DNA of 64,000 nt, taken from positions 806,001 to 870,000 of the forward strand of contig CAJNDT010000313.1 of the NCBI GenBank assembly GCA_905221615.1. Reading direction: 5' to 3'. The notes under the pieces were generated by a model. It was not told the origin of the DNA. It saw nothing but the letters and a program-made list of their open reading frames with translations, and searched no databases. The position numbers were made by a program, and so were the translations under genes. This document shows, one piece after another, positions 2,876 through 64,000 of this stretch; within the stretch, counting starts at the first letter, position 1; every line of letters begins with the position of its first letter. The stretch comes from Symbiodinium sp. CCMP2592 (taxonomy: Eukaryota; Sar; Dinophyceae; Suessiales; Symbiodiniaceae).

Positions 2876-2942
2876 GTGTGTTTGGCTCCACCGAGTTGCC
2901 TAACGGATAAGCTCACTTCCTGGATCTCTTCAGACGCCATAA
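2876..2942 (+). CDS. Candidate exon, unknown upstream gene
   Basis: AG|G acceptor at 2875 and a good GTAAGA donor at 2943 bracket an open frame reading VCLAPPSCLTDKLTSWISSD. Its phase-1 end joins in frame to the candidate exon at 3691. The family is not recognised. C-rich repeat before the next exon and G-rich repeat after it agree with a + strand gene. Confidence 0.4.
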
Positions 2943-7202: not shown

Positions 7203-7340
7203 CTACGACTACTACTACTACTACTACTACTACTACTGCTACTGCTACTGCTACTGCTACTGCTACTGCTGCTACTACTGCTACTACTGCTACTACTACT
7301 ACTACTACTACCACTACTGCTACTACTACTACTACCACCA

Positions 7341-7408
<68 letters not shown>

Positions 7409-7564
7409 GCTACTGCTACTGCTACTGCTACTGCTACTGCTACTGCTACTGCTACTGCTACTACTACTACTACTACTACTACTGCTACTACTGTTACAAC
7501 TACAACTACAACTACAATTACAAGTACTGCTACTACTACTTCTACTACTACTACTACTACCACC
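7203..7564. repeat. (TAC)n/(TGC)n trinucleotide array
   Basis: About 360 bp of CTA and CTG triplets in blocks: pure CTA, alternating CTACTG, then CTACAA. Long ORFs of poly-Leu, poly-Thr, poly-Tyr and, on the other strand, poly-Val are consequences of the repeat. Confidence 0.95.
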
Positions 7565-10889: not shown

Positions 10890-10958
10890 GTGGAGGATTC
10901 GGCTTCCGCCTCAGGAAACTGGTGCTCAAGTCCGGACAAAGGCTGTTCCAGCATTATC

Positions 10959-11047
10959 TTACCTTTGGTTAGTAGGGAATGGAAGAACGGTAGTTATAGT
11001 AGTTATCGTTGTACCCCATTCTACCATTCCCTACTAACCAAAGGTAA
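10959..11047. mobile_element. Family B foldback element
   Basis: Perfect ~24-bp inverted arms (TTACCTTTGGTTAGTAGGGA and its complement) around a ~40-bp loop. A second member with the core CTTAGTAGGG lies at about 49,252-49,366. The right arm ends in GGTAAGT, a donor-like sequence. Confidence 0.85.
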
Positions 11048-12916
11048 GTTATTTCTGCAGATCCTGGCAGGCAATGACTGCTATCTTGGTATTGCAGCAA
11101 CTCCGTTCCCCACATCTGCCCTCCCTCCCTTTTTTTCCGGCTCGCGACAAGCTTGCTTGCTCAGGCTTCTTTGTAAGTACGGCTGTCAGTGCCAAAGCCT
11201 CCTCCAACTAGAGTGCTCCAACCCGCTCTCAATGTACTTCTTTCGAAGCCCCTTAAACCTCTCAGCAAAGCACTGAACCCCTACAAGCCAAAACCCCAAA
11301 CCCTGCCCTGCAAATCATTAAGCCCAAGAAGCCCGGAAATCGCCAACCCAGAATCGCGAAGCCCTGGCGCCCCTTGACAGACCCTGGAAAGCTCTTGCAA
11401 AGCCTCAGAGAGGTGGCAAACGTCGGCATTGGTGTACCCAGAGAGGAGGAGGACCCCATTCCATCATTCCATTGCCCTAAGACGCCTAAATGCTTCGAAG
11501 TAGGGCAGAAGCCTGAATACTCACTCGTAGGATCCCGTTCTAGCCGTCGAATGCCAGTTCTATTACACAAAGATGACCCAAAAGCCTGTTGGAATTATTA
11601 ATACCGCTATACTGGGACCGTTCAGACTCCAAAGTAGGTACTACACCCCCTTCCCGTCAATTGTGGTAGTGGTAGGGATCCTAATGTTATAACGGCCCTT
11701 TAAGACAGGGGTTTATTCAGAACGAGTCCACCTTTTTGTCCGTATCCCTGGAGTCTTGGGCCTTGACCTATCAGGCTGTAACCTGAAAGTTAATGTTTAG
11801 GGTTCACGGTTGTTGGCGAGCTCGGAGCAAATGTGGCAGGGTTTATTGGGCTTCAAGGGTTAGGATGTCTTGGTGTTGTTCTTCTTATGGAGGGATTTGC
11901 AAAGAGCTTTGCACTTTCAGGAAGAGGCCAGGATTGCACAGGTCGAAGAGCCTTGGACTACCCTAAACCCGAAACCCGAGCCCCCAATTTACGGGTTTGG
12001 CCTTGGCAGGCTTAGTTTGACCTATCAGGCAGGCGTCGTAGGCTTAGAAGCATAGACCATTTGGTCTATGAGGCTGAAGGGTTACCGCATGTAGGGGGTA
12101 GAGATGTCAAGGCGGTTTGACGAGGGCTTTTGGGACAGCAAAGTTTGCTTTTCTTTTAGCAGACTGTCAGCGAGCTGGTGGCACATACGTTCATGGCATG
12201 CAAGCATACGGCGGTTGGTCTAAGCACCGGCATTTACAAGGTCCCTCCGTTTATGGGGGCATCCAGCTATTCCAGGGTCTGTTTCAGACTCTTTCTAAGT
12301 TTCAATCCTGAAGTGATAAGCCAAAATAGGACGTAGGATGTAAGGACAGGCCCCATGTGACAACAACAAGCGCAAATGGGTTGCTTCACTGGCCGCTGCA
12401 TTGCTTGGTGAATCTCTTGCTGTCGGTATGCATGGTGCCCGCTCATCACCTAGGCCTACAAGCCAAACTCCCAAGCTGCAAGCCCTACTCTGTAAACTTC
12501 CTACACCCGAAGCAATTGCACTGAAGAGCTTAAACCATGCAAATTCCCACAACTCTTGTCGGCTCAGAGTGGGGGCGGGCGGCGACCATGCAGCAAATCA
12601 GTACCAACAGCCCCAAAGCCCTAAAGCCAGAAGCCGTGTGCAAAGCAGCTGCAGCCTTTACCTTAGAACCCCCCCCCCCCCCCCCGCCCGACTGCATACA
12701 TCCAAAACCACCTGAGACCCGTTGAACCCGCACCCCCTACAAACACGTCACTCTCGCAAAGCCCCACAGAAACTGGCCGTTTCGCTTGGGCTTGAGACCC
12801 TAAGCCCCTCAACCCTGAACTCCAAAACCCTCGACCAAAACCCCAGTAAGCTCGTTTCTGGACCCTTATGAGACCCTGTAAAAACTTTGTAGCTCCACAT
12901 GGATGTCTGAGTTGCC
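11048..12916. other. Intronic or intergenic stretch
   Basis: A weak candidate exon lies at 11,413-11,451 (AG|G, frame VANVGIGVPREEE, GA donor). C-rich runs at about 11,270-11,370 and 12,790-12,845 and G-rich runs at about 11,800-11,870 are present. A 15-base C tract lies at about 12,670. Confidence 0.35.
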
Positions 12917-12952: not shown

Positions 12953-14959
12953 GTGAGTGGGATCTCTATGCACGCTGGCTTTCAAACTGGTTTGGGCTTT
13001 TGGGATTTAGGGTTTCAGGTTTCAGCGATTCCGCGTTGAGTCCGTGTTGAGGCTTTGAGGTTGTGGTTTAGTGTTTAAGTTTCTGGGTGTTGGTTCGGGG
13101 GTTAAGGCTTTGAGGTTCTGTGGGTTCGTTTAAGGATCGTGTCGAGCGCGTTGGTTTGTAGAGGTTGGGGCTTTGTGCTGTTTCGGGTTTGGTCAGGGCT
13201 TCTTGTTGGAATGTTAGGGTTTGGGGCTCTGTCGGTTCTAGTATAGGGCAGGGTCTATCATCATTTGGTGGTCTTCGGGGTTTAGCTTGTGGGGTTCTAT
13301 GCCTACTAATCACGACGGTTCAGGGTGCAGGCGCATGTACCTTCAAAGCCTAAATCCGACAGTCCTACATGTGTAACCAGGCTAACAGCGGTGCAAGGCT
13401 CTACGAATCCAACTGTGGCATAAGCAACATTTGGCCTAGTCGTTTAAAGCCTTCATGTGGACAGAGGAAACTCTCAGAGTCTCAAGCCTTGAACCCCCAC
13501 AGGCGACGGCTTGAAAGTTCTTCGGTAGTTTCGAACCCGCGCCCTAAGCCGTGGGACCCACACCCAGAACCCCTAAGCCCTGCAATCCTAGAGGTTCCAA
13601 AATTGCCCTCAAAGAATATGACCTTGCATCCATTACCTTCAAACCAAAACCGCGAGACCCCACGAAAGGTTTAACCCGAAGTCGACTTCGAAGCCTAACC
13701 AGACCCACAGGCCTCTGCAGAGCATTCCTAACGCCGAAAGCAACAAACGAGTAGCCTCAGTGAAATCTCAGGTACAGCGCCCCTGCAGCGCCCGAGGATG
13801 AGGGTGCAAAGTCGCTGGATCGCGGTTTCACGATTTAGGGCTCGAGATTAGCGTTTTAGGGACTTCCAAACGGATCCATACGGGTGCTGCTTAAGACTTA
13901 CGGCTCAGGGTCTAGGTTCGGGTCTAGGTTCGGATTTGGGATTCCCAACTGCCTGATTACAGGCTTTTCACTAAGTCAAATTAAGGTTTCCAAGCATTTG
14001 AGAAGCCCTTTACTCAGCCCCCACGAAACAGAAGGTCCAGATTGTGGATCAACAAAGCTCAGAACAGAAGTCCGTTGACGTCCCCAAAGAGTGACCCCAA
14101 ACCCTAAACCCTAAATCCTAATCCCCGAACCCCAAAGCCTAAACCCGAAACCCTAGGAGTCACGAAAGGAAGGCCAAGCCTTCGAACAGGTTACAAGCCA
14201 ACAGAAGCCGAGCTCCTGTCCTAGCGCCTGACGACCTCAACCCACATCCTGAATTCCATATTGTGATATAGTCTATAATATGCCTTAGTATGCCATATTC
14301 ATAGACTATGGTATACTACTGTATACTCTACTATACTATAAGGTGACATGGCGTACTTGGTATATACTGTAATATGCTGAAGTACACCTTGTCACATCAA
14401 GTTTAGGACAGGCTCAGGGTTTAGGGTTTGGTGCTTGGGGTTCAGTTCGCGCAGTGTTGAAGACAGCACAGATAGCCTCATCGCCCAAGATGAAAGCTTA
14501 ACCCCCCCACCCCTTCAGATCCCTGAAACCCTCAACCCTGAACCCTAAACCCCCAGATTCCTGAAACTTAACGCCTCAAATCCGCACCCCTTGCCGAGGC
14601 CCAGCCAAAAGGATGCATCCTCCAAGGTGTCCCTCGGCCCTTGATTGGTAAAGGGTTCATAGAGATTCAGGAGGCTTGATATGGACTCTGCACGGTGTGC
14701 ATGCGGTTTTACAAGTGGTGGTTTGTCAGGGTTTCATGGCTTTCGGGTTTCAAGGTTTAGGGTTTCGGGATTTCAGGGCTAAGGGGTTTGGGGGATTTCA
14801 TTTCTTAGGGCTTTAGGGTTTGTATGGGTCCATCTTGGGAGCTTCAAGGACCTAGGATGCAAGGAGGTTATAGTTGGGCCTGGGGTTGTTCGCAACACAA
14901 CTTACATATACATATATATATACATACACATGTACATACTCATTTTTGTATTTTTGTTT

Positions 14960-14997
<38 letters not shown>

Positions 14998-27494: not shown

Positions 27495-28696
27495 GCACAT
27501 GCCTATACAACACCGTTAGGTGAACAGCCCTAAACCCGAAACAGTTGGCGTCTATTTCCTTGGAGAGCTCGGCACGCAAGGTGGGGCGACGTCCAATCCT
27601 GACGAGTTGGAAGACCTCTATGCAGCTCGGGCAGCCATACAGGTAAACATACACCCCCAAAGGTCCATGCAAATAGTATATGCATCATCCCCAATGTACC
27701 TTTACAGGGACTACTTTAAGGCCACAGTATATACTATTTGGGTACATGGACCCTTGGGGACGGCCAACCGTAAGATTTTCACAGAGACTATAGGGCAAAA
27801 CATCAGCAAACAGGGTGCTCGTTTGGTTGTCTTGTCGGCAACGGCTTCCAGGACTCCTTAGCGGGTGTAAGCTCGATTGCGCACATCGAAACTCACACCC
27901 CGAATCCCCGAAACTCTACGACCCAGACTCTGATCCCCTGCCTTCAGTCAACATTGCTTTGGTGGTTTTGAGCACTCGGTAGCAACCCTGAAACTTCAAA
28001 CGACCGCACACCCTAAACCGAGACCCCTAACTGGCTGATGAGGTTCGTCAGGACCTGCCTAATCTAATTATAAAGGCCCCTACATTACAGTACCATTACA
28101 GGTTCCTTATAGTAGCTTAGGGGTACTTAGAAATTATTTTTAATTTTTGGTTATTATATCCCTAAGAAACCGCTAGAATTCTAATTTTTGCTAGGGTTCT
28201 AACTTCAGTATAGGCAAGCCCCAACCGGCTCATGAGGTTCGTCAGGATCTGCCTATTCATGAGACGCCTCAAGGCCTGGTCTTCGTGGAGGACTTGTCAC
28301 TGATCTTTGGCCGATCTTGAACGGTTTAGGGTTTAGGGGCTTAAGGTTTAGGGTTTAGGGGTTTAAGGTCTAGTTAGGGTTGTTAGGGTTTAGGATGTAG
28401 GGGTTTAAGGTTTAGGGCTTAGGGCTCTTGAAGTCGATGTTCGGTTTTCTCTGGTGGAGTTGCAACAGCACTGGCAAATAGTATTCTTAAAAACGGGTGT
28501 TGGATGAATCGGCGCATGCATGACAAACCATATGTATGTACATATGTAGGTATGTATGTATGTACGTATGCATGTTTGTATGCATGCAGGTATCTACATA
28601 CATATATATGTATATTCATATGTGTACACATACATGTGTTATTAAGATAGCACAACGTATGCGCATCGCATACATGCTAGTATGTGTTTGCATACG

Positions 28697-53200: not shown

Positions 53201-56200
53201 TCCAGAGGTCCCCTTTACGTGGGTTTAGGTAGCATCGCAGGGCCGTGAATGCGGCGTTTAGGTTGCTGAATGTAGGAGCCTACCTAGATGCCTGATTAAT
53301 CAGTCAGATGCAGTACTACAGTTAGTTCTTAGGCTCACTTAGTACGGCTGCCGTGTCCAAACAAACTAGACTATTCAGGCCTCTCCAGTTGGTCTTGATG
53401 CCCCGGGCCAGTTTCATGTTGGAGGTTGTATTTGCTATGCAAAGAAGGAGGGGAGGAGCGGGAAAAACGACCACAAGATGCGCAGGAAAGCTGAGGTTGC
53501 GACATGTTCGTCAATAACATCTGAGTTACTGTGAGAAGCTCGCCAGGACAAAGACTTCAATGCAAAGCCTGGTAGCCTGCATAAACCCAAAGCGCTAGTT
53601 GTGGTAGGTTTTGGGGCCCCGAGATTGAAATCGCAGATCGCCGTATAAATCGATTTTCCCTGAGGTGCATCGCGTGGATCCGACGATGCCAGTGGTTACA
53701 ATGCCGCTGGTATCTTCGCAGCACACGTGGAGCTTGGATAGGCTTAGGGCGTTTATGTTTACCAGCACAGTCTCCTGGTACCTTCGGCCTATTGGGGGGG
53801 GTATGTCGGGACAAAGCTTAGGGGTAATAACTTCGTAGAAGGTTGGAGCCTGGGGGGGCTTTGGGCTTAATTAGGGTGTTCCAGGGACCAGCTGTTGCTG
53901 TTTAGGCTATTGGGGCAGTTCATTTCATGGTTTGCACTTCAGAGTTCCTCCCTATTCTACTCTTATTCTGCGTAAGGTCTAACACGAAGGGTTCTTTTAG
54001 GGCTGAGGGTTTCAGCGTCAGAGTTAGGGCGTAGGGTCTCCTCCACACTCCTACGCCGAACCCCAACACCAAAGCCCCAGATCCTCAAGTTCGATCATGG
54101 GTAACAGACCGCTCATTACAGGTTGCAAAGTCTTCTGTAGGGGCTGGTAGGCCGGTGGACCGTCGATACCATAATCCCTACTGTAAAACCTGCCCGATAC
54201 GAGGGCCCAAACACTTAGTAGCATTATCCCCCTATGCTCCCTGATCTCTTATTATAGTGTGGGTTAGCCCTCTTCCAGTGGTAACATGAAAGCCCCAATA
54301 TCCAATACAAGAAGTAAACCCTAAACCCTGAACCCGAAACCCCTAAACAGTAAACCCCTAAGCCTTAAACCCCAAAGCCCAAAACCCTAAACCCACCTGA
54401 AGCCCTAAACCCTTAAACCCTAAACCCTACTAAACCCTAAACCCTACAAACCCTACTACAGCCTAGGCCCAAGACCCTAAACCCACCTGAAGCCCTAACC
54501 CCCGAAACTCTAAACCCTAAGCCTTAAGCCCTACACCTTCAAAACAACGAAAGACCAGGTTGGCTCTAGGCCCTCCTCAAGAAGATCCTCCAAAAACACC
54601 GCTGGGGAAGGCTCCAAAGAGGCGAACCCGCAAAAGCTTACGGGTTTAGGGGTTTAGGGGCTTAGGGGCTTAGGGGTTTGGATTTAAGGGTTGTGGGTTT
54701 ATTAGGGTTCAGGGGATTAGGGTTTATTAGGGTTTATCTGGGTATATTAGGGTCTAGGGCTTTAGGTTGTATGCATGCTTTAGGGCTCTAGGGTTCTAGG
54801 GTTTTTTTAGGACACTGGCATTTGTGGTTGGAGTTGTGAATTAAGGGTTCTTGGGTTCGGGGTATAGGGTGGGAAAATCTGATTCTTTAACAGGGTTGTG
54901 TTGCTGGATGTTGATTCGAAGACTTTGTCTTGGATTTCGGGTCTACAGTTGAGGTTCAGGTTTCGTGTGGTCTTAGGGTTGGGGCATTTAATCTGTTGTT
55001 TTGGGTATGTCGTTTTTTTTCTTGTTGTTTGCGTTGTTGGCTGATGGTCGTGGGCCCATGGTCATGGGCCGTTGTGGGTTTAGGATGCTGGTTTGGTTTT
55101 GGGGGTCAGGGTGGCATTTTGATTCTTGATTCAGGCATCTGTCTGATCGTGTTGTGGCTTAGTGTTTCTTGGCGGGAGATGCATCGGAATGATGAGAGGG
55201 TGGTTCTGATAAGGCCTCACAGTGCTAGATGCCCTGCTGGCAACACTAGGATGCCCCGTAGTACCCTGATTCCGATTTTGTAGTCCTAGGTTCCCTATAA
55301 CGTTCTACCCACTACCAAAAAGGGAGCCCTTTTTATTCCTAGGTTACCGGGCATCCGAGAACAGAATGCAATGAAAAGGGTTTCGGCAGCTTTGCGGACA
55401 ATCTGCCATGGTCAACTTCGCAGAAACAATAGGGAAGTCAAGTCGGCTTGCCGTGATCATAGCAATCCCCAAGCATACTCATGTTCTGACCCCCGCCGTT
55501 GGGCCTAAATCAATCCCTAAACCCGACTCGTTTTCGGACATTGTGCTTGTAGGCCCTGACGCTAGAGCCGCGTAATCAGGAGACGTCTCCGCGAACTCTG
55601 GCTGGGAAGATCGCATCGCTCCTTGTCGGGCTGCCAGACCCACCACTCCGATCCGATGCAAAGGTGCCGTGCTTTGTTGAAGATGGGTGGGGGGCGTGAG
55701 GGTGAGGTTCGGGGGAGGGTCGCAGGAATTTTGAAGATTCTTCACGGCGGGTGTTGTCTATCGTTCGAGGCGGTTTAAGGCTTGGGGCATGATATTACAT
55801 CAGTGATGCCGCACGCATTCTTCTAGGGTTAAGTTGGGTTTATTCAGGGTCTTGCAAGAAATGCAGGAATGATTGAGTGCGTAGTTGGGGTTCTTTTCGG
55901 TGCTACCTGCACAACACTTACTTCGTGCAGGAGTTTCCGACAAGGTGTGTGCCTCATGCGCCCTGAAGGACCACATGTCCCCTCTTGGGTATGTATGGTG
56001 TGCCGTACACCTGTATGTAATATCAACCATGAAGCCTATTGTGCGGTTCATGTGGCCCTTCATAAGTACGTAACCTAAGCCTGCGACGCTCTCAATGTTT
56101 GCGATGTAATCGAATACTCATGACTCAGGTGGCCTTAGACCCCCAAAACAAGGCAATAGACAGACCCCTGAGGGATTACACTCTTTCTCTACATAGAATG

Positions 56201-59200: not shown

Positions 59201-61293
59201 TGGTGGGACGCCGATGGCTTTGCCAGAGACTTCTGTGATCTCGACGTCGCTCCCAGAGACGAGAGTGGGGAAGCTTGACGAAGTTCTGAAGATCTAGCAT
59301 TACGTCCTAGGTTTGTCAGTACCCATCTTGCCTGTGTTTTTCGGGCTGTTTATGGTTTTCCTGTTTTAAACGTAAGAGCAGGAGCAATATTTTTTTTACC
59401 GTCTACTAGACAGCGGAGTGAAGAAAGTGACGGAAAGCTCGAACATCACCTTCTCATTCCCAAACACTAAACCTTATCCGCCTTATGCCGTCTTCTGATT
59501 TCTGGAGTTCGGGTATGTTCGACTCAGAGCATACCCATTGAGAGGCTTAGCGAGATGGGTGTTACAAGGTGAAGAGTACTCCATGATCGCATTGGTGGTT
59601 CACAATTGAGCGCTCATGATAGGGGTCATCTTAGGGAATCCAACGCCTAGCTGCGTGTCCCAGCTCTGGACACTCGTTTGTCCAGATCGCATACGGTCGC
59701 CAATAGCACGGACAATATCACAAGGGTCATATGGTTCTGCCAACCCTGCTCAGTCCAGGCTGAGCGTACCGACCGAGCTATATATCACAGATTCCCTCAA
59801 GCTTCAAAAGAGACGAGGAGCAGGATGCCCCAACTCCGGGCTAGGGGTGGGGACTGGAACGCGCTGAGATCTTCAAAGAGAACTGAAGGGTTCATAGGCG
59901 ACTGGCAGCATACAGCGGGTGTCCATCGCTTGTGGTGGCTGCCAGTCCATGCAGTTTGTGGTTGCTCCTTCTTCGGAATTCTTACTGTGCCTGTAAGATG
60001 CAATGAACAGGGAGTCCTTCTCCTTACTGCTTTTGACCCTAAGCACTAAGCCCGAAGCCCTAGACCACCAAGCCCGAATAAAAGCTCAACACCCACCCCA
60101 AATCCGAAACCGCTGGGTTTAGCCTCAGGAGGGTTTTCCCTCTGTCTGCCGGTTCACTGTACTATACAGTAGGGGCCGTAGTAATTACCAATACTATTTT
60201 GGGGGGTGGTCTTTATTCTGATAACAGGAAAAATGGGCCCCAACACCCTATTCTAATTAATGAGGCCCCTGCATTAGCCGAGGCCCAGGAAGTCTTGGAA
60301 AGCCTGTGCCCAGCGAGGCAGGAGGAACGTCTCGGCGGGTTTCCCTGCTTTGGGATCTCACTAGGAGGCTTTTGATTCTGTCTTGCTATAAGCCCAATTA
60401 AGGGGTTATTAAAAAAACACAGCTTTTGCCATATCATAATAGGTTTAAGGGGCATGCGGACTTCATGGTTCATGGGTAGTTCGATTCTACCTGGGTTCTA
60501 GGTGCCCCATCACGAACTCTAGCTACAGTTGTTTCACATGTTACTCTACGAACTGGGCCAGCTGACCCTTGAAGTAGGCTGCGCACTTTCTTCAAAGAGG
60601 TGCACGACGTGTCACATCCCAAAGCCCCACCCGAAACCCCTGGGTCACCTGTAGCCTCAAGCCCTGCGTGTCCAACTCTTGCAGCCCCTAGCTCGGGGTC
60701 CTTTGAACTCATATAGGGTCCTTAAGAATTAGAATGGGGTTTAGAGGTATATTCTACCATGGTTATTTTAAGGAACCACCAAAACCCTACTCTACTTATC
60801 AGTAACACCCCTATGTTACGTCATCCTAAAGCTGCCGGGAAGCCATGGAAGTCCGACGGAAATCCAGCGAAGTCCTCGGACTTCAACCCGGTAGGCTCCG
60901 GGCCCTCTGCACGTCGCTGCATCGGCGGGTCAGCTTGTCAAAGGCGGACAAGGTGGGGCGACGAATTCAATAGCTGAGCAGGCAGAAACTTTAGCTTTCT
61001 TTTGCAGGAGCCCATCGTCTTGGGCTTTATGTTTGGAGTTTAGGGTTTCAGGTTTAGCCAACTTGTTCAATGTCATGTTGCTGCTATAGTATTGTGTAAC
61101 ATTTCGCCAATTCTCTTGTTCTAAGCCGTCCGATTTGATCTTGATAGTACAGCAGTAGGATATCTCCCATTGATCTTGTTCTAAGCCTTCCCAACCAATG
61201 CAATGATCTGACCCGAAAGCAGCCGAGCTTGCACAAACCCAAACCGCGAGGCCTTAGGTTAGAAGCCTTCATAGTAATAGTCATAGTCATAGC

Positions 61294-61346
<53 letters not shown>

Positions 61347-61414
61347 AAGTAGTAGTGTTGGTAGTGGTAGTAGTAGTAGTAGTAGTAGAAGTAGAAGTAG
61401 AAGTAGAAGTAGAA

Positions 61415-61475
<61 letters not shown>

Positions 61476-61559
61476 TGTAGTAGTGGTAGTGTATTAGTGG
61501 TAGTGGTAGTTGTAGTGGTAGTGGTAGTGGTAGTGGTAGTGGTAGTGGTAGTGGTAGTG

Positions 61560-61628
<69 letters not shown>

Positions 61629-64000
61629 CTAGTACTAGTACTAGTACTAGTACTAGTACTAGTACTAGTACTAGTACTAGTACGAGCATAAGTACGAGCA
61701 GAAGTACGAGCAGCAGTACGAGTAGTAGTACGTGTAGTACGAGTACTACGAGTAGGACGAGTAGGACGAGTACGGGTCGAGTAAGAGTAAGAGAATTAGC
61801 ACGGAATAGTAACACTCACAATAAAAGCAGCAAAAATAATCAAGAATCAAAATGATAACAAGAAGAGTATTAATAGCACTATTACTATAGTAATACTGAT
61901 ATTATAATAGCAGACAGTAAGAGTTCTAGCGGTCTTGTAAGTCTCAGGGTCCAAGGTCTGTGAAGTTGTTCAACCCAAAAACTCTTTGTCTAATCCCCAA
62001 CCCCTACACACCTCAAACCCCACAATGAATTCTAAGAAGAGTGGTAATAGTAAAACTAGAAGTATCATGCTTCCGCTCCTCCGGGGCCTTAGTCCAATCA
62101 TTGATCATCGAGGCAGCGATATATAGGTTAGGATATTCCCGATATATGTAGGGGTGGTGTGGTGTGCCCCAGAACCCTATTCCAGTTTTTTCAGTCATCT
62201 ACCTCACAGAGCGTTGGGTTTATAGGGTTTGGGTCTTGTATCTCAGGCCGTAGCCTGAGTTCCAAGGGCAGACGTCGCGTCTCAGGGACGGGGCTTGTAA
62301 GGAAAAGCTACCTGTACTTCACGGACCTTCGTAAGGTTACCAAGATTCTGAGGGATACGCTTACTATCACTTTTTTTAAGAGTAACCTCAGGATCCCTGC
62401 AGGTTGTATATACACCCAAAAATCGCTGCCACCCAGCCCTGAACCGACACTCGAACATTGTATGAGTCACAGTCAGTATTTGCGGTAGCACTACTACGGC
62501 CTTTCAAAGGAGTGATAAGCAGTCATGTGCTTGTTGAGTTGGTAATGTGTACATCACATCAACTCATATCACTCCCAGTTTCAGGCTGCTGAAAAGGCCA
62601 AAGCCTTGGACGAGGTCGCCCGGCGGCTATCCCACTCGGAGACTTGTCCGAAACCCCCACAGCTGAGGCCCCCCGACACCGGGAGCCAGCAATCCGGTTA
62701 ATGAGGGTCTGACGCCTCTGAGGGTTTCTGAACAATTCATAGTATAGTTGTTTGTTTTTATTGGTTTTGGCATTTGTTGTGTTTTACAATATTGTTCAGC
62801 TCGTACCTGGTTCGTGTCCAGCGCCGGAGTTTGTGAGGTTTGGAAGTGTGCTTAGAGTGGTGTTGAGGCGATGTTCAACGGAAGCCAGAGAAATGGTTGA
62901 ATCGGTGGGTTTGTCCCTGTGTAAATACAAAAGACCGTTTAGGAGTTGGAGGTTTGTTGGTTGAGGTTGTTTATGTTTTGCTCCCGTTTCTTTGGGTTTT
63001 GTGGTTCAGCCCTAACCTTAAGCCCAAATATGGGGGGGGCCTAAATAATTATCTATACTATTTCTAGGGTTCCGTTTTATAGCTATAGTATACTATGCCC
63101 CAAAACCCTATTCTAATTAAAAATTCAGGCCGCTAGATTAAACCCAGAAGTATCAGTCTTAGACCCAAACCGCAGCCCGGAAGCCTCAATCTCATAGGGA
63201 TCCTTAGGGGTGTAGGGGGGAGGGGTGTAGGGGACTATATTTCCTTAAATAGGCCTTATTAGTCCTTATTATGGGCCTTAAGGCCCCCTACCCCCCCTCC
63301 CCTCACACCCCTAAGGATCCCTATGACAATCTGGAATCCTGATACCCTGTAACCCAAGGAGACCGTCGACCGCATTCGTGAGATGGAGCGGGAGATCGCG
63401 AAGTACAAGGACATATGGGAGTTTCTGAAAATAGGGGACCCTAATGTAGTACCCTAAATAGTAGGATCCGTATTGCAAGGACCCCAAAATACGGCACCCT
63501 AGTTTTCGGAAACTCCCTTTTGTCTGGGTTCGGATTTCGGCAGAAGGGTTTCGAGCTCAGGGCTTGGAGTTTGGAGATTCGGGTCTCCGGTTCAGGAACT
63601 GGGGTTTGGGATTTAGGGTTTAGGCTAGCTTGCGGGTTTAAGTAAGGCCTTGCGAATTTCAGGAGCTGGTGCTGTAGGAGTTTTGGATTTGAGGCTCTGC
63701 AATTTGATATGCCACCTGTTTGAGTCGGCTGTGGCCGACGATGGCACCGTAATCCCCCATGTGTTTCCTTGGCCAAACACCCTGAAGTTCCCGTGGAGTT
63801 CCATAAAGCCCACCTATGAAGCCTCATCAATGCCTTCTGAGGCCCTTACTAACCCTCCTGGTCTGCTGAGGAGCAGCAGGTGGTCCAGCACGAGGAGCAG
63901 TACAACCTCGAGTGCGTCCTGAAGCATTGCAACGAAAGCTGGTCTTCCTTGGGCAACTGAGGTCCTGAAAGCTCCAAGTTTAACATCCGGGTGCCGGCGT
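12917..64000 (+). CDS. Kinesin with N-terminal motor and coiled-coil stalk (whole gene, 3' incomplete)
   Basis: ATP-driven microtubule motor assembled from exons listed below. The motor (16,083-34,845, about 335 residues, normal for the superfamily) contains, in order, [18 protein letters not shown], the P-loop [31 protein letters not shown] (switch I), [10 protein letters not shown] (switch II), [30 protein letters not shown] and FADRCQNVQNKP (end of motor). Every catalytic motif is intact. Charged Glu/Lys/Arg/Gln-rich exons follow to the window end, as expected of a coiled-coil stalk. The motor at the N-terminus predicts a plus-end-directed type by analogy. I cannot assign a subfamily: FADRC near the neck resembles protist orphan kinesins, and parts of the motor resemble kinesin-12. 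Cargo and cellular role are unknown. Coding density is about 5 percent. The stop codon is outside the window. Confidence 0.9.
13797..13817 (+). CDS. Candidate kinesin N-terminal exon
   Basis: GAG|G acceptor, phase-0 frame DEGAKSL ending at a GA donor; a GT donor seven bases further would end in phase 1. Flanked by C-rich repeat on the left and TTTAGGGCTCG-type repeat on the right. Confidence 0.45.
14169..14189 (+). CDS. Candidate kinesin N-terminal exon
   Basis: AAG|G acceptor directly after a dense CCCTAAACCCTAA block; phase-0 frame EGQAFEQ to a GT donor at 14,190. Confidence 0.45.
14599..14626 (+). CDS. Candidate exon
   Basis: GAG|G acceptor after C-rich repeat; frame AQPKGCILQ ending phase 1 at GT (14,627); dense G-rich repeat follows at 14,720-14,820. 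The phase does not fit the 15,666 exon directly, so another exon would be needed at about 15,300-15,360. Confidence 0.35.
14905..15035. repeat. TA/TACA microsatellite
   Basis: ACATATACATATATA-type array followed by two long pure TA runs. Confidence 0.9.
15211..15294. mobile_element. Family A foldback (MITE-like)
   Basis: Left end TGTAGGGGCCTCAGTAGTTA, core CTGTACTAC...GGGGGTTCCTTATTG, right end TTATTAAGGCCCCTATA. A short but well-preserved copy. Confidence 0.85.
15571..15651. mobile_element. Small foldback element next to an acceptor
   Basis: AGGCTCCATTGTAGTTCC is matched by GGAACTACCATGGAGCCT at the other end. It ends 14 bp before the candidate exon at 15,666. Confidence 0.8.
15666..15685 (+). 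CDS. Candidate kinesin exon preceding the motor
   Basis: GAG|G acceptor; phase 0 gives VGCSTKW with a GC donor in phase 2, which joins exactly to the phase needed by the exon at 16,083 ([13 protein letters not shown]). No C-rich repeat precedes it, so support is moderate. Confidence 0.45.
16083..16134 (+). CDS. Kinesin motor exon 1: beta-1 strand
   Basis: AAG|G acceptor, GC donor. Encodes [24 protein letters not shown] is the conserved first beta strand and nucleotide-contacting RP of kinesin motors. Phase 2 in, phase 0 out. Confidence 0.88.
16164..16337. mobile_element. Family A foldback, two nested or tandem copies
   Basis: Starts ATACAGGGGCCTACATAAAT and ends CATTATTGAGGCCCCTACAT. In between the core (GGGGTTCC..ATTATA..GTACAGTATAATA) occurs twice, so one copy seems inserted in or fused to another. 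Confidence 0.75.
16922..16986 (+). CDS. Kinesin motor exon 2
   Basis: GAG|G acceptor, CAG|GC donor. Encodes [20 protein letters not shown], the beta-1a/1b region, weakly conserved in the family. The phases match its neighbours exactly. Confidence 0.82.
17436..17501 (+). CDS. Kinesin motor exon 3: FTFDHVF
   Basis: CACAG|G acceptor. Encodes [20 protein letters not shown], the classic kinesin FxFDxVF strand. Only a GA donor after GCAGT restores frame with exon 4 (QEAV-FDVV). Confidence 0.93.
17502..18831. other. Kinesin intron 3
   Basis: Starts GAAGCT. Simple sequence near 17,540-17,660, G-rich runs early and dense CCCTAAACCC at 18,245-18,480. A 157-codon open frame overlapping its 3' part (18,494-18,964) is in phase with exon 4, but family alignment supports only the last 80 nt as coding. 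Confidence 0.7.
18832..18911 (+). CDS. Kinesin motor exon 4: helix alpha-1 and P-loop start
   Basis: GAG|G acceptor. Encodes [17 protein letters not shown] and then [10 protein letters not shown]. The glycine codon of the P-loop is split, and the donor must be GC (G|GCAGCT) to give GQTGSGKT with exon 5. Confidence 0.95.
18912..20484. other. Kinesin intron 4, within the P-loop
   Basis: Starts GCAGCT. Contains a GA/GATA microsatellite at about 19,320-19,440, a G run at 19,270 and TTTAGGG-like sequence at 19,530-19,670. C-rich repeat CTGAACCCTAAACCC precedes the acceptor. Confidence 0.75.
20485..20513 (+). CDS. Kinesin motor exon 5: P-loop GSGKT
   Basis: 29-nt exon completing [13 protein letters not shown], the ATP-binding Walker A. 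GAG|G acceptor; GA donor (GGA|GAGGGA) gives phase 0 to exon 6. Confidence 0.92.
21235..21360. repeat. AT-rich TAATAAT/AGTAG low-complexity run
   Basis: Irregular GTAGT/AATAATA triplet-like sequence just before exon 6; no gene. Confidence 0.6.
21372..21489 (+). CDS. Kinesin motor exon 6: helix alpha-2 region
   Basis: AAAAG|G acceptor. Encodes [15 protein letters not shown] and then [25 protein letters not shown](I/L)..LF is the conserved post-P-loop helix. The longest recognised motor exon. GA donor in phase 1. Confidence 0.93.
22555..22575 (+). CDS. Kinesin motor exon 6b: 21-nt microexon
   Basis: GAG|G acceptor, GT donor (GTGAGC). Encodes AFQRVF and two thirds of a Cys codon; with exon 7 it reads [15 protein letters not shown], filling the family strand before (S)FLEIY. 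Both phases fit. Confidence 0.8.
22576..23298. other. Kinesin intron 6b
   Basis: Starts GTGAGC. G-rich GGGTTCAAGG-like sequence at about 22,680-22,710, then C-rich CCCTAAATC/CCCTAAGTCCC at about 22,860-23,260. No exon seen. Confidence 0.6.
23299..23337 (+). CDS. Kinesin motor exon 7: [12 protein letters not shown]
   Basis: GAG|G acceptor, GT donor. [12 protein letters not shown] corresponds to the near-invariant FLEIYNE.(V/I).DLL; Asn-Glu is replaced by Leu-Asp. Confidence 0.94.
23413..23806. repeat. (TAC)n minisatellite with CACCTACTA and TGCTGCTGC blocks
   Basis: Higher-order array: runs of CTACTACAC alternate with CTACTACTACTGCTGCTGC blocks four times, ending in CTACGA triplets. It begins 75 bp after exon 7, inside the intron. 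Poly-Tyr/Cys and poly-Val/Ala ORFs are artefacts. Confidence 0.95.
24267..24323 (+). CDS. Kinesin motor exon 8
   Basis: GAG|G acceptor, GT donor (CCCA|GTCGCT). Encodes [18 protein letters not shown], corresponding to the family G.YV.GLTE strand after the FLEIY helix. Confidence 0.85.
24324..27580. other. Kinesin intron 8 (long, may hide further exons)
   Basis: Repeat polarity alternates G-rich (24,340-24,415), C-rich (25,190-25,240), G-rich (25,420-25,630), C-rich (25,830-25,900), G-rich (26,540-26,600). This would fit one or two undetected exons (candidates near 25,278 and 26,800) inserted in loop 8. TA/GATA arrays lie at 27,190-27,495. Confidence 0.5.
27190..27495. repeat. TA, GATA/GACA and GTAT microsatellite cluster
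   Basis: CACACA, (TA)n, GATAGATA, GACAGACA, TATGTATG and (TA)n blocks in succession. Tyr/Ile-rich ORFs here are artefacts. Confidence 0.9.
27581..27642 (+). CDS. Kinesin motor exon 9: helix alpha-3
   Basis: AAG|G acceptor, CAG|GT donor. Encodes [20 protein letters not shown], the helix-3 segment preceding switch I. It joins exon 8 as ...TPS-GATSN. Confidence 0.92.
27654..27759. mobile_element. Foldback element just after a donor
   Basis: Arms CCCCAAAGGTCCATG and CATGGACCCTTGGGG with inner matching CAAATAGTATAT. It begins 11 bp after the exon 9 donor. Confidence 0.85.
27760..30342. other. Kinesin intron 9
   Basis: Partial family A end at 28,066-28,105, G-rich TTTAGGG repeats at 28,320-28,425, TA/GTAT microsatellites at 28,525-28,765, and CTAT/CTCT arrays at 28,860-29,030. 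CCCTAAAACC precedes exon 10. No exon seen. Confidence 0.6.
30343..30388 (+). CDS. Kinesin motor exon 10: switch I
   Basis: GAG|G acceptor, GT donor (TTCA|GTGTGA). Encodes [20 protein letters not shown] is the switch I signature that senses nucleotide. Confidence 0.96.
30860..30944 (+). CDS. Kinesin motor exon 11: switch II
   Basis: AAG|G acceptor. Encodes [16 protein letters not shown] followed by [11 protein letters not shown](R); DLAGSER is the switch II signature. GC donor inside the Arg codon. Confidence 0.96.
31050..31375. repeat. (GTAT)n/(GTATGCAT)n microsatellite
   Basis: About 300 bp of TATG units with GCATGCATG interruptions; Cys/Met/Tyr-rich ORFs are artefacts. Confidence 0.9.
31729..31755 (+). 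CDS. Kinesin motor exon 11b: 27-nt microexon
   Basis: TAG|G acceptor, GA donor. Encodes LARSQSEG, giving [20 protein letters not shown], exactly the loop expected between switch II and helix alpha-4 in kinesins. Both phases fit. Confidence 0.88.
32091..32139 (+). CDS. Kinesin motor exon 12: helix alpha-4
   Basis: GAG|G acceptor. Encodes [16 protein letters not shown] (family: E...IN.SLSALGKV). The donor is AAG|GCAGGA (GC), required for LGK-VVLAL with exon 13. Confidence 0.95.
32540..32870. repeat. Degenerate AAGGAACCCT-like short tandem repeat
   Basis: Many copies of AAGGAACCCT/AAGGATTCC in both orientations in the last 350 bp of intron 12; not telomere-like. Confidence 0.6.
32907..32980 (+). 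CDS. Kinesin motor exon 13: [11 protein letters not shown]
   Basis: AAAG|G acceptor. Encodes [20 protein letters not shown] and [16 protein letters not shown] is the microtubule-binding signature. GA donor (CTCCA|GAGCTT) completes Gln with exon 14. Confidence 0.97.
33644..33715 (+). CDS. Kinesin motor exon 14: SLGGNS
   Basis: GAG|G acceptor, GC donor (GAAGA|GCCCCT). Encodes [20 protein letters not shown] and NYEE. Family: (D/N)SLGGNS.T...V.PS..NYEE. Confidence 0.96.
34329..34364 (+). CDS. Kinesin motor exon 15: FADRC
   Basis: 36-nt exon. CAG|G acceptor, GA donor (TGCCA|GAAGCT). Encodes [11 protein letters not shown], the helix alpha-6 motif (E(S/T)L.(S/T)L.FA.R). A CAG|ACC further in gives a wrong frame. 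Confidence 0.94.
34616..34735. mobile_element. Foldback element in intron 15
   Basis: Imperfect arms ACTTAGTAGCTGAGT...ACTTTACACTTTT and AAAGTGTAGACTTTT...ACTCAGCAACTAAGT around a short loop. Confidence 0.7.
34786..34845 (+). CDS. Kinesin motor exon 16: neck
   Basis: AAG|G acceptor. Encodes [25 protein letters not shown] closes the motor domain (family A..I.NKP.(V/I)N). GC donor (AAAG|GCAGGT) in phase 2. Confidence 0.95.
34970..35830. other. Coding-like, repeat-poor island inside intron 16
   Basis: GC-rich and free of CCCTAAA-like repeat, with open frames on both strands. On + the protein-like frames include [20 protein letters not shown], then [20 protein letters not shown], then [20 protein letters not shown] (35,635-). 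The kinesin frame skips it: exon 16 joins exon 17 in phase. It may be a decayed retroposed cDNA or a nested gene. I recognise no family. Confidence 0.4.
36526..36584 (+). CDS. Kinesin neck/coiled-coil exon 17
   Basis: CAG|G acceptor right after CCCTAAACCCTAAAG, GT donor. Encodes [20 protein letters not shown], the start of the coiled coil. Confidence 0.92.
36700..36818. mobile_element. Family D foldback element
   Basis: GGAGTTTCCGAAAATTAGGGG inverted at the right end as CCCCTACTTTCGGAAACTCC. A second copy lies at 63,417-63,519. Confidence 0.85.
37097..37128 (+). CDS. Kinesin stalk exon
   Basis: TAG|GC acceptor continues exon 17 in phase as [13 protein letters not shown] donor preferred, other ends possible. 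Confidence 0.7.
37973..38055. mobile_element. Family A foldback, reverse orientation
   Basis: Reads TTTTGGGGCCCATTATACTATAATTATAATAAGGAACCCC, the reverse complement of the family core; both ends are present but degenerate. Confidence 0.8.
38116..38178 (+). CDS. Kinesin stalk exon
   Basis: GAG|G acceptor, phase-0 frame [22 protein letters not shown] donor at 38,179 (or GT at 38,185). Unrecognised, polar. Confidence 0.75.
38198..38306. mobile_element. Family C foldback element
   Basis: Arms CTCCAGAAAGTTGGAATATG and CATATTCCAACTTTCTGG. A reverse-oriented second copy lies at 42,160-42,268. It starts within 20-30 bp of the preceding donor. Confidence 0.9.
38759..38809 (+). CDS. Kinesin stalk exon, coiled coil
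   Basis: CAG|G acceptor, phase-0 [19 protein letters not shown] donor. Amphipathic, helical. Confidence 0.8.
39302..39337 (+). CDS. Kinesin stalk exon, coiled coil
   Basis: CCAG|G acceptor, phase-0 [12 protein letters not shown]; the frame continues ARIEQLG to 39,356, so the donor (GC at 39,338 or GA at 39,357) is unsettled. Confidence 0.75.
40390..40409 (+). CDS. Kinesin stalk microexon (tentative)
   Basis: GAG|G acceptor, frame ALKMEMQ with a GA donor in phase 2 that fits exon 40,953. Confidence 0.5.
40832..40932. mobile_element. Family A foldback (MITE-like)
   Basis: GTATAGGGCCTTACTACCTA...CTACTATTTTGGGGGTTCC...GCCCCAAAACCCTATTCTAA..TTAAGGCTCCTACATT. It ends about 20 bp before the acceptor of the next exon. 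Confidence 0.9.
40953..41004 (+). CDS. Kinesin stalk exon, coiled coil
   Basis: CAG|G acceptor, frame [22 protein letters not shown] donor. Confidence 0.85.
41038..41151. mobile_element. Family A foldback, diverged
   Basis: TAACTACC..TTACTATT..GGGATCCTTATTATGG..TGCCCCAAAACCTTATTCTAATTG..CGGCCC; starts 34 bp after the preceding donor. Confidence 0.75.
42056..42076 (+). CDS. Kinesin stalk exon, coiled coil
   Basis: AAAG|G acceptor, phase-0 EAYEEAQ(E), GA donor at 42,077 or GT at 42,081. Confidence 0.65.
42160..42268. mobile_element. Family C foldback element, reverse copy
   Basis: Same arms as 38,198-38,306 in opposite order: GTAAAAGCCAGAAAGTTGGA at left, TTCCAACTTTCTGGAGTTCC at right. Confidence 0.9.
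42586..42621 (+). CDS. Tentative stalk exon
   Basis: Frame [12 protein letters not shown] after CTCAG|A, lacking the usual exonic G, with a GA donor. Local repeat polarity argues against it. Confidence 0.25.
42737..42754 (+). CDS. Tentative stalk exon
   Basis: TTTGCAG|G acceptor after a long C-rich run; phase 0 gives VSVVSK with a GA donor. An alternative to the 42,586 exon. Confidence 0.3.
42785..44640. repeat. Palindromic satellite array, period about 176 bp
   Basis: Five copies in one orientation (GC-rich cores starting about 42,868, 43,042, 43,218, 43,394, 43,569), then, after a switch at about 43,598, seven in the other (about 43,664 to 44,569). Each unit joins a GC-rich core, CCTGGCCAGGCCCGGCCGTC, to AATTTTTGAAAAAATTG-type sequence. 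The ORFs of 70-150 codons here are read-through of the repeat. Confidence 0.95.
44641..48360. repeat. Higher-order tandem duplication rich in GAGCTCTCTTCT
   Basis: A block from about 44,640 to 46,375 is repeated at about 46,380-48,000 (offset about 1.74 kb) with high identity. Inside each block two shorter related halves of about 1.0 and 0.74 kb can be seen (start sites near 44,640, 45,645, 46,380, 47,385). A further partial copy lies at 48,160-48,360. The + strand is rich in CTCTCTTCTT tracts. Minus-strand ORFs up to 199 codons (46,780-47,379) are shared by the copies but match nothing I know. Confidence 0.85.
48361..48920. other. End of the 6-kb kinesin intron
   Basis: Non-repetitive, with short protein-like frames on + (about 48,384-48,450, [16 protein letters not shown]). 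The last 130 bp carry CCCTAAACCC/CCCTGAACCCC repeat before the acceptor. Confidence 0.4.
48921..48979 (+). CDS. Kinesin stalk exon
   Basis: AAAG|G acceptor, phase-0 [22 protein letters not shown] donor in phase 2. TTTAGGGTTTAGGG follows. Confidence 0.8.
49228..49258 (+). CDS. Kinesin stalk exon whose end lies in a foldback arm
   Basis: GAG|G acceptor, frame [12 protein letters not shown] donor. The last bases and the donor (CTGTCTG|GTTCTTAG) form the left arm of a family B foldback. Confidence 0.65.
49252..49366. mobile_element. Family B foldback element
   Basis: CTGTCTGGTTCTTAGTAGGG at left and its complement CCCTACTAAGAACCAGACAG at right; the inner part is also partly symmetric. Shares its core with 10,959-11,047. 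Confidence 0.85.
49555..49619 (+). CDS. Kinesin stalk exon, coiled coil
   Basis: CCAG|G acceptor, phase-0 [20 protein letters not shown] and (E)R, GA donor in phase 2. Clear heptad-like pattern. Confidence 0.88.
50270..50330 (+). CDS. Kinesin stalk exon
   Basis: ACAG|G acceptor, frame [22 protein letters not shown] donor in phase 0; aromatic-rich. Confidence 0.65.
50684..50704 (+). CDS. Kinesin stalk exon
   Basis: TAG|G acceptor, phase-0 DAESELA to a GC donor, or DAESELAAA to the consensus GTAAGG donor at 50,712. Confidence 0.6.
51061..51096 (+). CDS. Tentative stalk exon
   Basis: GCAG|G acceptor, phase-0 [14 protein letters not shown] donor. Confidence 0.45.
51264..51293 (+). CDS. Stalk exon or decoy, repeat copy 1
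   Basis: GAG|G acceptor, [12 protein letters not shown] donor GTAAAT. Similar to 51,447 and 51,596. Confidence 0.45.
51447..51476 (+). CDS. Stalk exon or decoy, repeat copy 2
   Basis: GAG|G acceptor after [21 protein letters not shown]. No good donor directly after, so probably not used. Confidence 0.25.
51596..51628 (+). CDS. Kinesin stalk exon, repeat copy 3
   Basis: GAG|G acceptor after dense [24 protein letters not shown] with a GA donor, or ...GE with GC. The best supported of the three copies. Confidence 0.7.
51682..51794. mobile_element. Family A foldback (MITE-like)
   Basis: CTATAGGGGCCTAGAAAAAT...TTCTTTATTATAACTATAG...ATGGGCCCCAAAGCCC...CTTAAGGCCCCTATATTA. Confidence 0.9.
51974..52171. 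mobile_element. Composite family A foldback
   Basis: A family A copy with a long T/G run, joined to AAATCCTTGTAATAGCCCTT sequence that also occurs at about 41,985-42,050; ends TTATTAAGGCCCCGATGC. Confidence 0.75.
52196..52216 (+). CDS. Tentative stalk exon
   Basis: GAG|G acceptor 25 bp after a foldback end; EGQGAPK to a GT donor. The other phase, KAKEHQK, is more coil-like. Confidence 0.4.
52237..52332. mobile_element. Imperfect foldback
   Basis: GGTTACCAGTTGTTG matched by CAACAACTATGCAGGTAACC with an A/T-rich centre; family unknown. Confidence 0.55.
52570..52600 (+). CDS. Kinesin stalk exon
   Basis: CCAG|G acceptor, phase-0 [12 protein letters not shown] donor in phase 1, matching the next exon. 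Confidence 0.75.
52818..52921. mobile_element. Family A foldback, reverse orientation
   Basis: CATAGGGCCTTAGTAAATGG...GGGGCCCATTATACTA...TAGGTAATTATTAAGGCCCC. Confidence 0.88.
53448..53485 (+). CDS. Kinesin stalk exon, highly charged
   Basis: AAG|GA acceptor; in the phase from 52,600 it reads [15 protein letters not shown] donor. Confidence 0.65.
54310..54545. repeat. Dense CCCTAAA telomere-like tract before an exon
   Basis: More than 20 CCCTAAA-like units, many exact, ending 25 bp before the 54,570 exon. Confidence 0.9.
54570..54608 (+). CDS. Kinesin stalk exon
   Basis: TAG|G acceptor, phase-0 [13 protein letters not shown], frame open to 54,634; donor uncertain. CCCTAAA tract before, TTTAGGG tract (54,645-54,860) after. 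Confidence 0.75.
54645..54865. repeat. TTTAGGG telomere-like tract after an exon
   Basis: GGTTTAGGGG/GGTTTATTAGGG units in the opposite strand sense to the tract before the exon. Confidence 0.9.
55580..55612 (+). CDS. Tentative stalk exon
   Basis: CAG|G acceptor, phase-0 [11 protein letters not shown]; the alternative phase [11 protein letters not shown] is also open. Confidence 0.4.
55613..56897. other. Intron-like stretch
   Basis: Little repeat except G-rich sequence at 55,680-55,850 and C-rich at 56,700-56,760. Open frames at 55,800-56,080 on both strands are unrecognised. Confidence 0.4.
56898..56975 (+). CDS. Kinesin stalk exon
   Basis: CAG|G acceptor, phase-0 [20 protein letters not shown] and PPGG; donor uncertain. 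Confidence 0.65.
57066..57113. mobile_element. Family A foldback remnant
   Basis: Right half only: CTCAAAACCCTATTCCA...TCAATAAGGCCCTTACCTTA. Confidence 0.55.
57467..57543 (+). CDS. Kinesin stalk exon
   Basis: GAG|G acceptor following a CCCTATAAACCCTAAA tract; phase-0 [20 protein letters not shown] and SQQRDL; GC or GT donor at 57,544-57,546. Low helix propensity. Confidence 0.7.
57544..60168. other. Intron-like stretch
   Basis: ACTAGTACTGATACTAG-type low complexity at 57,575-57,775. A candidate exon at 59,195 (GAG|G) has two open frames, [20 protein letters not shown] and a +1 frame ending [11 protein letters not shown]-rich repeat at 58,790-59,060 lies upstream of it. Confidence 0.4.
60169..60276. 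mobile_element. Family A foldback abutting an acceptor
   Basis: AGTAGGGGCCGTAGTAATTA...ATGGGCCCCAACACCC...TTAATGAGGCCCCTGCATTA; ends 6 bp before exon 60,283. Confidence 0.9.
60283..60338 (+). CDS. Kinesin stalk exon, coiled coil
   Basis: GAG|G acceptor, phase-0 [19 protein letters not shown]; donor uncertain (GT in GGG|GTTTCC or earlier). Confidence 0.75.
60712..60818. mobile_element. Family A foldback, diverged
   Basis: ATATAGGGTCCTTAAGAATT...TTTTAAGGAACCACC...ACACCCCTATGTTA; ends about 13 bp before the next coding frame. Confidence 0.6.
60832..60970 (+). CDS. Kinesin stalk exon (ends uncertain)
   Basis: Frame [20 protein letters not shown] continuing [20 protein letters not shown] to a TAG near 60,970. 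Helical and charged. The acceptor (AAAG|C) lacks the usual G. Confidence 0.5.
61274..61795. repeat. (GTA)n/(GTG)n/(GTACTA)n trinucleotide array
   Basis: About 520 bp: (AGT)n, (AGA AGT)n, (GGT AGT)n, (AGT)n, then (AGTACT)n and AGTACGAG units. Poly-Val, poly-Leu and poly-Thr ORFs are artefacts. Confidence 0.95.
61796..62507. other. Intronic stretch
   Basis: AT-rich short repeats to about 61,920, a possible eroded family A end near 62,150, and GGGTTTATAGGGTTTGGG at 62,215. No exon recognised. Confidence 0.4.
62508..62577. mobile_element. Foldback element abutting an acceptor
   Basis: GGAGTGATA...TTGAGTTGGTAATGTG and CACATCAACTCATATCACTCC form an imperfect hairpin; ends 7 bp before exon 62,585. 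Confidence 0.75.
62585..62638 (+). CDS. Kinesin stalk exon, coiled coil
   Basis: CAG|G acceptor, phase-0 [20 protein letters not shown] donor. Confidence 0.88.
63030..63138. mobile_element. Family A foldback (MITE-like)
   Basis: GGGGGGGCCTAAATAATTAT...TACTATTTCTAGGGTTCC...GCCCCAAAACCCTATTCTAA...AGGCCGCTAGATTA. Confidence 0.85.
63194..63327. mobile_element. Foldback element, G-rich/C-rich arms
   Basis: CATAGGGATCCTTAGGGGTG...GGGGGGAGGGG and its complement ending CACCCCTAAGGATCCCTATG; arms of about 45 bp, 32 bp before the next exon. Confidence 0.9.
63359..63409 (+). CDS. Kinesin stalk exon, coiled coil
   Basis: AAG|G acceptor, phase-0 [19 protein letters not shown] donor (AAG|GACATA). Confidence 0.9.
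63417..63519. mobile_element. Family D foldback just after a donor
   Basis: GGGAGTTTCTGAAAATAGGG and CCCTAGTTTTCGGAAACTCCC; starts 7 bp after the donor; partner of 36,700-36,818. Confidence 0.88.
63871..63915 (+). CDS. Kinesin stalk exon, coiled coil, last in window
   Basis: GAG|G acceptor, phase-0 [17 protein letters not shown] donor at 63,916; the frame stays open to a TGA near 63,960. The gene continues beyond the window. Confidence 0.82.

Follow-up and report, generated by a model that had tools for sequence, protein, structure and literature searches.

How dinoflagellate spliceosomes recognise short exons that lie between kilobase introns, with degenerate GT, GC or GA donors, is an open question, and so is the way in which the introns grow. 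The telomeres of F. kawagutii and of other dinoflagellates are built from TTTAGGG units, and in Symbiodiniaceae 25-74% of intron borders are given as GC/GA-AG (PMC11453091). In human LCAT intron 4, G-rich and C-rich intronic enhancers are described as acting jointly on a weak tract (PMC2481429), and G-quadruplexes are described as common near donors in mammalian introns (PMC5778605). Symbiodinium microadriaticum introners with inverted ends have been described, as have GC and GA donors among families of introners (PMC9860276), and insertion of telomere repeats at breaks has been documented in rodents and primates (PMC2246262). Among the titles and abstract beginnings listed for telomere-like repeats in introns together with dinoflagellates, introners, splice sites or breaks, with few subscription journals covered, none describes an opposite polarity of such repeats at the two ends of an intron.

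The stretch analysed here, called the window, is 64,000 nucleotides of Symbiodinium sp. CCMP2592 DNA (G000:C313:806001-870000) from an assembly of 1,098,105,373 bases in 5,383 contigs. Repeats were counted as 7-mers, any rotation of TTTAGGG being scored as + and any rotation of CCCTAAA as -, either exactly or with one mismatch. The window holds 438 exact TTTAGGG-type and 461 exact CCCTAAA-type 7-mers, about 14 per kb, and ten order-1 Markov simulations of it gave 45-80 and 41-59, respectively; telomere-type arrays are thus present inside the window far above chance (438/461 against 41-80 simulated), as is expected of interstitial telomeric sequence. Across the assembly, 69,045 exact four-unit matches were found, true telomeres counted in, and a control pattern gave 0. 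An Rfam scan at gathering cut-offs and a tRNA scan of the window found nothing, and a Pfam scan of the three + frames with stops read as X, covering 48-63 kb and 28-43 kb, found kinesin pieces only.

Repeats of other kinds were also observed. A tandem array at 42790-44570 has periods near 175 and 351, mostly with 94-97% matches and partly inverted, and from its end to about 48.8 kb there are zero exact telomere-like 7-mers. Long trinucleotide arrays of the CTA/TAG type, with several reading frames open through them, lie at 7203-7560, 23418-23804 (kinesin intron 5) and 61272-61682, and an inverted repeat of 235 bp, 92% identical, lies at 1286-1520 and 2006-2240. Repeat families of 80-120 bp, mostly fold-back and MITE-like, are found at 10958-11050, 49254-49352, 36709-36816, 38203-38307 and 37973-38051; families of this kind were also listed at loci L010, L017, L024, L043 and L051, and three of the five occur in repeat-poor loci too. 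Elsewhere in the assembly, U1 snRNA genes recur in tandem with a unit of about 2,136 bp (contigs C2929, C3641, C4008 and others; at least 42 matches). Such tandem U1 genes are a dinoflagellate trait and, with the GC/GA donors and AG|G acceptors, point to a dinoflagellate.

The window carries an 11-intron kinesin gene on the + strand (17.4-33.7 kb), whose twelve exons encode one motor domain. The exons were defined independently of polarity, with a profile from kinesin reading frames of the same genome, Pfam, and inspection of frame and borders by eye; tblastn with the genome's own kinesins was too noisy, and the profile was used instead. The borders of exons 1, 4, 5, 8, 11 and 12 are less certain than those of the other exons, and the borders of exons 9 and 10 were shifted by 14 and 20 nt after the polarity count, restoring the frame. 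The introns are 475-3,245 nt long, with GT, GC and GA donors and acceptors that are mostly AG|G. Third-codon GC is 0.74 in these exons and 0.68 in the exons of L024, a second repeat-rich kinesin locus, against 0.51-0.66 in 14 telomere-poor kinesin frames.

Along this gene, exons on the + strand alternate with arrays located by 7-mer scan, those of CCCTAAA type being on the - strand and those of TTTAGGG type on the + strand. Part of exon 1 with its donor (17443-17501; frame and coding score) is followed in the 3' part of intron 1 by CCCTAAA-type clusters with 42 exact matches (18251-18616), and then by exon 2 with its donor (18832-18911; Pfam and profile). Exon 3, which encodes the P-loop (20485-20525; profile), is adjoined upstream by a CCCTAAA-type array with 9 exact matches (20455-20469) and followed by TTTAGGG-type clusters with 8 (20586-20853). 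Exon 4, of uncertain end (21411-21466), exon 5 (23299-23337), exon 6 (24267-24336) and exon 7 with its donor (27581-27642) were placed by frame and border inspection; CCCTAAA-type sequence precedes exon 5 with 17 exact matches (22863-23262), exon 6 with 15 (24017-24212) and exon 7 with 4 (27528-27537), and TTTAGGG-type clusters with 34 exact matches run from the exon 6 donor onward (24334-24659), the donor GTTTAGG lying inside the array. Exon 8 (30335-30394; profile) is followed by exon 9 (30871-30964; profile, frame and border inspection), whose donor GTTTAGGG is the first unit of an array, and a TTTAGGG-type cluster with 7 exact matches continues downstream (30965-31145). Exon 10 with its donor (32091-32139; profile) is followed by two CCCTAAA-type matches (32881-32888) upstream of exon 11 (32907-32982; Pfam and profile), by TTTAGGG-type clusters with 14 exact matches (33037-33183) downstream of it, and by a CCCTAAA-type cluster with 6 (33516-33582) upstream of exon 12, whose end is uncertain (33644-33730; profile).

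A putative extra exon-like segment on the + strand (28246-28309) lies in intron 7 within a gap from a - to a + cluster (gap coding z 3.6); a TTTAGGG-type array (+, 28322-28417) adjoins it 3', and 30 exact TTTAGGG-type matches lie within 100 nt of its proposed donor. This segment and 24267-24336 resemble the same kinesin region, and a duplicated or alternative exon is possible. Outside the gene, a candidate exon at 54,570 has a CCCTAAA-type array with 58 exact matches upstream (-, 54315-54520) and a TTTAGGG-type array downstream (+, 54642-54860).

The opposite repeat polarity at the intron ends is real. In the 100 nt of intron next to each splice site of the 11 window kinesin introns, the exact TTTAGGG:CCCTAAA counts are 40:10 at donors and 0:40 at acceptors, in line with the claim of the earlier note that TTTAGGG-type sequence occupies the 5' part of introns and CCCTAAA-type sequence the 3' part; with one mismatch allowed, the counts are 152:26 and 4:142. 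For triplet runs, GGG and CCC number 40 and 7 at the 11 donors and 6 and 37 at the 11 acceptors, and after masking of telomere-like 7-mers with one mismatch allowed, GGG:CCC is 17:2 at donors and 5:10 at acceptors. At two donors, those of exons 6 and 9 as placed, the GT itself is supplied by a telomere-like unit, GTTTAGG. In several introns only one end carries an array. The sign is wrong for the arrays at donors 4 and 10 and weakly so at donor 7, donor 5 has no array, and acceptors 4 and 7b are without the right sign. When the motif track was rotated over the gene, the observed score was never reached at distances of 100, 200 or 300 nt; with exact matches, p was 0.0025 at 500 nt and 0.006 for whole intron halves. 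Ten internal exons placed randomly reach the polarity score with p = 0.003, which is the more cautious figure because the clusters are long.

Five pairs of sites had been named as examples of this polarity, and four of them have exact right-sign matches in both members and zero of the wrong sign, although 32,020-32,060 holds only 1 exact and 4 one-mismatch matches; in the fifth pair, 13,490-13,560 contains 0 exact and 5 one-mismatch matches. Only the pairs at 24.3-27.5 and 31-32 kb lie in introns between homology-supported exons, those at 34.9-36.5, 54.3-54.9 and 13.0-13.5 kb being outside the homology-supported exon region. A microexon that had been placed at 31,729 proved unnecessary, the donor CACAG|GTTTAGGG and the acceptor CCGAG|GTTTCAGG joining exons 9 and 10 in frame.

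To the window were added 20, 8 and 10 further kinesin loci, 39 loci in all, and 3 of the 39 are repeat-rich: the window, L024 on contig C5121 (51 per kb) and L043 on contig C3824. The other 36 are repeat-poor, with 0-2 matches per kb and 0-5 per locus. On C5121 (minus strand), CCCTAAA units ending in CCCAG|G precede a motor exon. On C3824, the P-loop exon lies between CCCTAAA and TTTAGGG clusters, and so do two kinesin-like segments that come after it; these two were read out of right-sign gaps, so that their count is partly circular. Pooled over three genes on three contigs at 100 nt, donors were right in 12 cases and wrong in 3 with 1 tie (n=16; sign p 0.035), and acceptors were right in 15 and wrong in 2 (n=17; sign p 0.002), with exact TTTAGGG:CCCTAAA counts of 98:10 at donors and 1:136 at acceptors; at 150 nt, the pooled donors stood at 12 vs 4 (sign p 0.08). 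In L024, an apparent stop past the last kinesin exon (minus strand) is followed by about 500 nt without a TTTAGGG cluster, then by a CCCTAAA array and then by an exon-like gap; this layout is what a splicing-signal model predicts, in a single case in which the exon is possibly not terminal.

It is very improbable that the polarity arises from the way exons were chosen, from the small sample or from clustering of the repeats. Such an artefact would be favoured by the two C3824 exons and the one intron-7 segment that were found through right-sign gaps, by the uncertainty of some borders, and by a random-placement p that is 0.003 and not lower. When the three gap-noticed segments are left out, however, donors are still right in 9 of 13 cases (3 wrong, 1 tie) and acceptors in 13 of 14 (1 wrong), and the agreement extends across three contigs.

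The pattern TTTAGGG...CCCTAAA is its own reverse complement, and the resulting bracket marks exon versus intron, not transcript direction. Since it reads alike on both strands, the genome-wide strand bias relative to transcript direction, whose absence was to have counted against the earlier note, cannot decide on the bracket. Cluster gaps of 60-200 nt, an exon-like length, made up 28 of 47 gaps from - to + versus 9 of 45 gaps from + to - (Fisher p = 1.3e-4, the band having been picked post hoc); rank tests on the gap lengths were weaker (p 0.05-0.12), and alternation of cluster signs along the window was not significant (p 0.09). Coding potential in - to + gaps relative to other gaps gave p 0.01 without the known exons and 0.04 with them, lending weak support, and the same test gave no significant difference over 2.9-16.8 kb or over 34-64 kb.

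On either side of an exon, the G-rich strand runs 5' to 3' outward, as at chromosome ends. The same geometry would be left if the arrays were fossils of insertion, each end of a break gaining telomere repeats before the ends rejoin as TTTAGGG...CCCTAAA, or if they came from an introner with telomere-like inverted ends; neither course needs a present function. This origin is rather unlikely, though the outward direction agrees with it, as do the 209-nt intron on C5121, whose first part is G-rich and last part C-rich, the telomere repeats known from breaks in rodents and primates and the introners of S. microadriaticum. Against it stand the one-ended arrays of several introns and the blastn comparison of the window with itself and 45 loci (about 328 kb of 1.1 Gb), in which repeat families were seen, 80-120 bp long and mostly fold-back, none tied to the arrays, and in which no multicopy element with telomere-like inverted ends appeared. 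Because both intron borders carry AG|G, short target-site duplications would be masked. Shared repeat families were also considered as the source of the arrays, and blastn gave no support for this.

Window intron 2, which is 1,573 nt long and bears an array, also speaks against an origin of introns by insertion. In the paralogue L035, an intron at the same site and in the same phase (QTG|G-SGK; sense about 539-612) is 74 nt long, GC-AG and array-free, and because the site and phase are shared without the array, the array in window intron 2 was probably added after the intron existed; parallel intron gain at this site may be the alternative. Among the few introns compared, arrays accompany long introns and array-free ones are short. 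In the same assembly, six array-free introns whose borders are exactly placed are 74-139 nt long with GC or GA donors and show no G-run bias at the donors; GGG:CCC is 2:7 there and 2:6 at acceptors.

In the telomere-poor kinesin loci the bracket was absent. For 50 exon flanks in 26 such loci, no polarity was found at 20-120 nt, the counts being 4:4 upstream and 2:1 downstream for exact matches and 47:48 and 39:30 with one mismatch, and no clear G/C skew was seen in these flanks. The bracket is not a general splicing requirement or code of this genome, because the telomere-poor flanks and the array-free introns do without it. A general G/C skew of introns was considered as a cause and rejected, being absent within 120 nt of telomere-poor exons and at the six array-free donors. 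At 120-300 nt downstream, the telomere-poor flanks lean to TTTAGGG with one mismatch (58:21; G 0.29, C 0.26), and in the 36 telomere-poor loci (L009-L023, L025-L036, L040-L042, L044-L049) the sense strand leans to TTTAGGG by 114:45 exact and 1,727:1,241 one-mismatch matches, or, counted by locus, 18 vs 8 with 10 ties (p 0.08). Such a lean relates to the transcript strand and is a different thing from the bracket.

The telomere-rich loci differ in surroundings as well, with a GC of 0.47-0.48 vs 0.51-0.58 (L020, with Ns, set apart). Repeat families are common to rich and poor loci, and contig C1 has one repeat-rich kilobase and, at least 36 kb away, three sampled kilobases without exact matches. 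Since C1 has both kinds of stretch and the families are shared, the arrays are most likely the mark of a compartment within a single genome; alternatively, C1 may be chimeric. A second organism in the assembly, considered in view of the lower GC of telomere-rich loci and the higher third-codon GC of their exons, was judged unlikely on the same two grounds, the families shared with telomere-poor loci and both kinds of stretch on C1.

The earlier note had proposed that an intron's UUUAGGG end could pair with its CCCUAAA end, looping out the intron and bridging its splice sites. The ends are complementary by construction, and a structure of this kind is described for the nonconventional introns of euglenids and for Amoebophrya introners (PMC4770533, PMC7789003). 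Bridging is nevertheless improbable here. In a permutation test on predicted duplexes of 12 introns, with the borders as in the polarity count, a 5' end paired with its own 3' end no more strongly than with that of another intron (p 0.87 at 80 nt and 0.80 at 150 nt), and this part of the proposal gained no support; pairing between two 5' ends was about equally strong, and one-sided introns exist.

The reading ranked first, with a probability of roughly 0.38, is that the degenerate TTTAGGG arrays act as strand-specific splice-flanking signals derived from abundant telomere-like repeats, a function suggested by their position, the two donors made of repeat units, the scarcity of the UUUAG|GG mimic before acceptors, the right-sign enrichment at intron ends and the known G/C-rich enhancers. 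G-runs at the start of the intron would help in donor definition, a role that G-rich intronic enhancers or G-quadruplexes play elsewhere. Before the acceptor, the C-rich and AG-free CCCUAAA tract would exclude competing AGs and may aid recognition of the branch site or tract, and UUUAG|GG by the acceptor, mimicking an AG|G acceptor, would be purged. Such signals would require no pairing between intron ends, and the arrays would be raw material that is plentiful in the repeat-rich compartment. That TTTAGGG is almost missing from the 100 nt before acceptors (1 vs 136) is consistent with splice-flanking signals. Against them stand the absence of arrays elsewhere in the sampled kinesin loci of this genome and the conservation, which shows no sign of being stronger at intron ends, the exact to one-mismatch ratio being 0.21 there vs 0.20 in interiors.

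The same ratio of 1 vs 136 would be expected if orientation were only filtered, arrays spreading at random and selection removing false acceptors (UUUAG|GG) or other disturbances of splicing. A filter of this kind is distinctly unlikely to be the whole explanation: it accounts neither for the scarcity of CCCTAAA after donors (10 vs 98) nor for right-sign arrays being denser near intron ends than in interiors, CCCTAAA-type matches near acceptors of the window gene numbering 40 per 1.1 kb vs 280 of both signs over 15.5 kb of intron. A wider reading is less likely than not: telomere-type repeats that run outward from exons on both sides, like chromosome caps, would define the long introns of one compartment as a working system. 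The introns may have been built or enlarged by telomerase-like addition at breaks, or the repeats may have been recruited as strand-coded signals for donor and acceptor, which can even supply the donor GU.

A repeat that brackets exons by strand would be a practical signal for gene finding and a clean system in which 'signal' can be separated from 'scar'. Should the repeats be functional, splicing would be among the roles of telomere-like DNA; should they be scars, introns would have been enlarged by way of telomere-type end healing.

Compared with known systems, the locus shares with the introners of Amoebophrya and Symbiodinium microadriaticum an intron-rich alveolate genome, GC and GA donors and inverted complementary intron ends, which are found here although several introns are one-ended; introners, however, occur as repeated families whose copies carry inverted repeats, 8-20 nt long in Amoebophrya, along with direct repeats or target-site duplications, whereas the arrays here are variable, tandem and telomere-like. 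Intron ends that could pair are likewise common to euglenid nonconventional introns and to this gene, but here most borders are GT/GC/GA-AG, with a few uncertain, and pairing of an intron's own ends is not favoured, so that neither the non-canonical borders nor the own-end pairing of the euglenid type is seen. Interstitial telomeric sequences at breaks in rodents and primates are also short telomere-like arrays inside chromosomes, and the available parts of those reports describe neither a link to exons nor arrays paired in opposite orientation. Plant telo boxes (Arabidopsis, rice) resemble the arrays in being telomere-like genic motifs with a positional bias that includes the first two introns, but they are single motifs linked to the promoter or the 5' end of the gene, and in the accessible portions of the sources an opposite polarity at intron ends is not described. 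With the G- and C-rich intronic enhancers of LCAT intron 4 and similar cases, the window gene shares G-runs and C-runs in introns with weak signals, the G-runs lying near donors and the C-runs near acceptors as they do not at the six array-free donors; enhancers of the LCAT type are short and partly interchangeable motifs, while here heptamer arrays are split between the two intron ends and belong to one compartment only.
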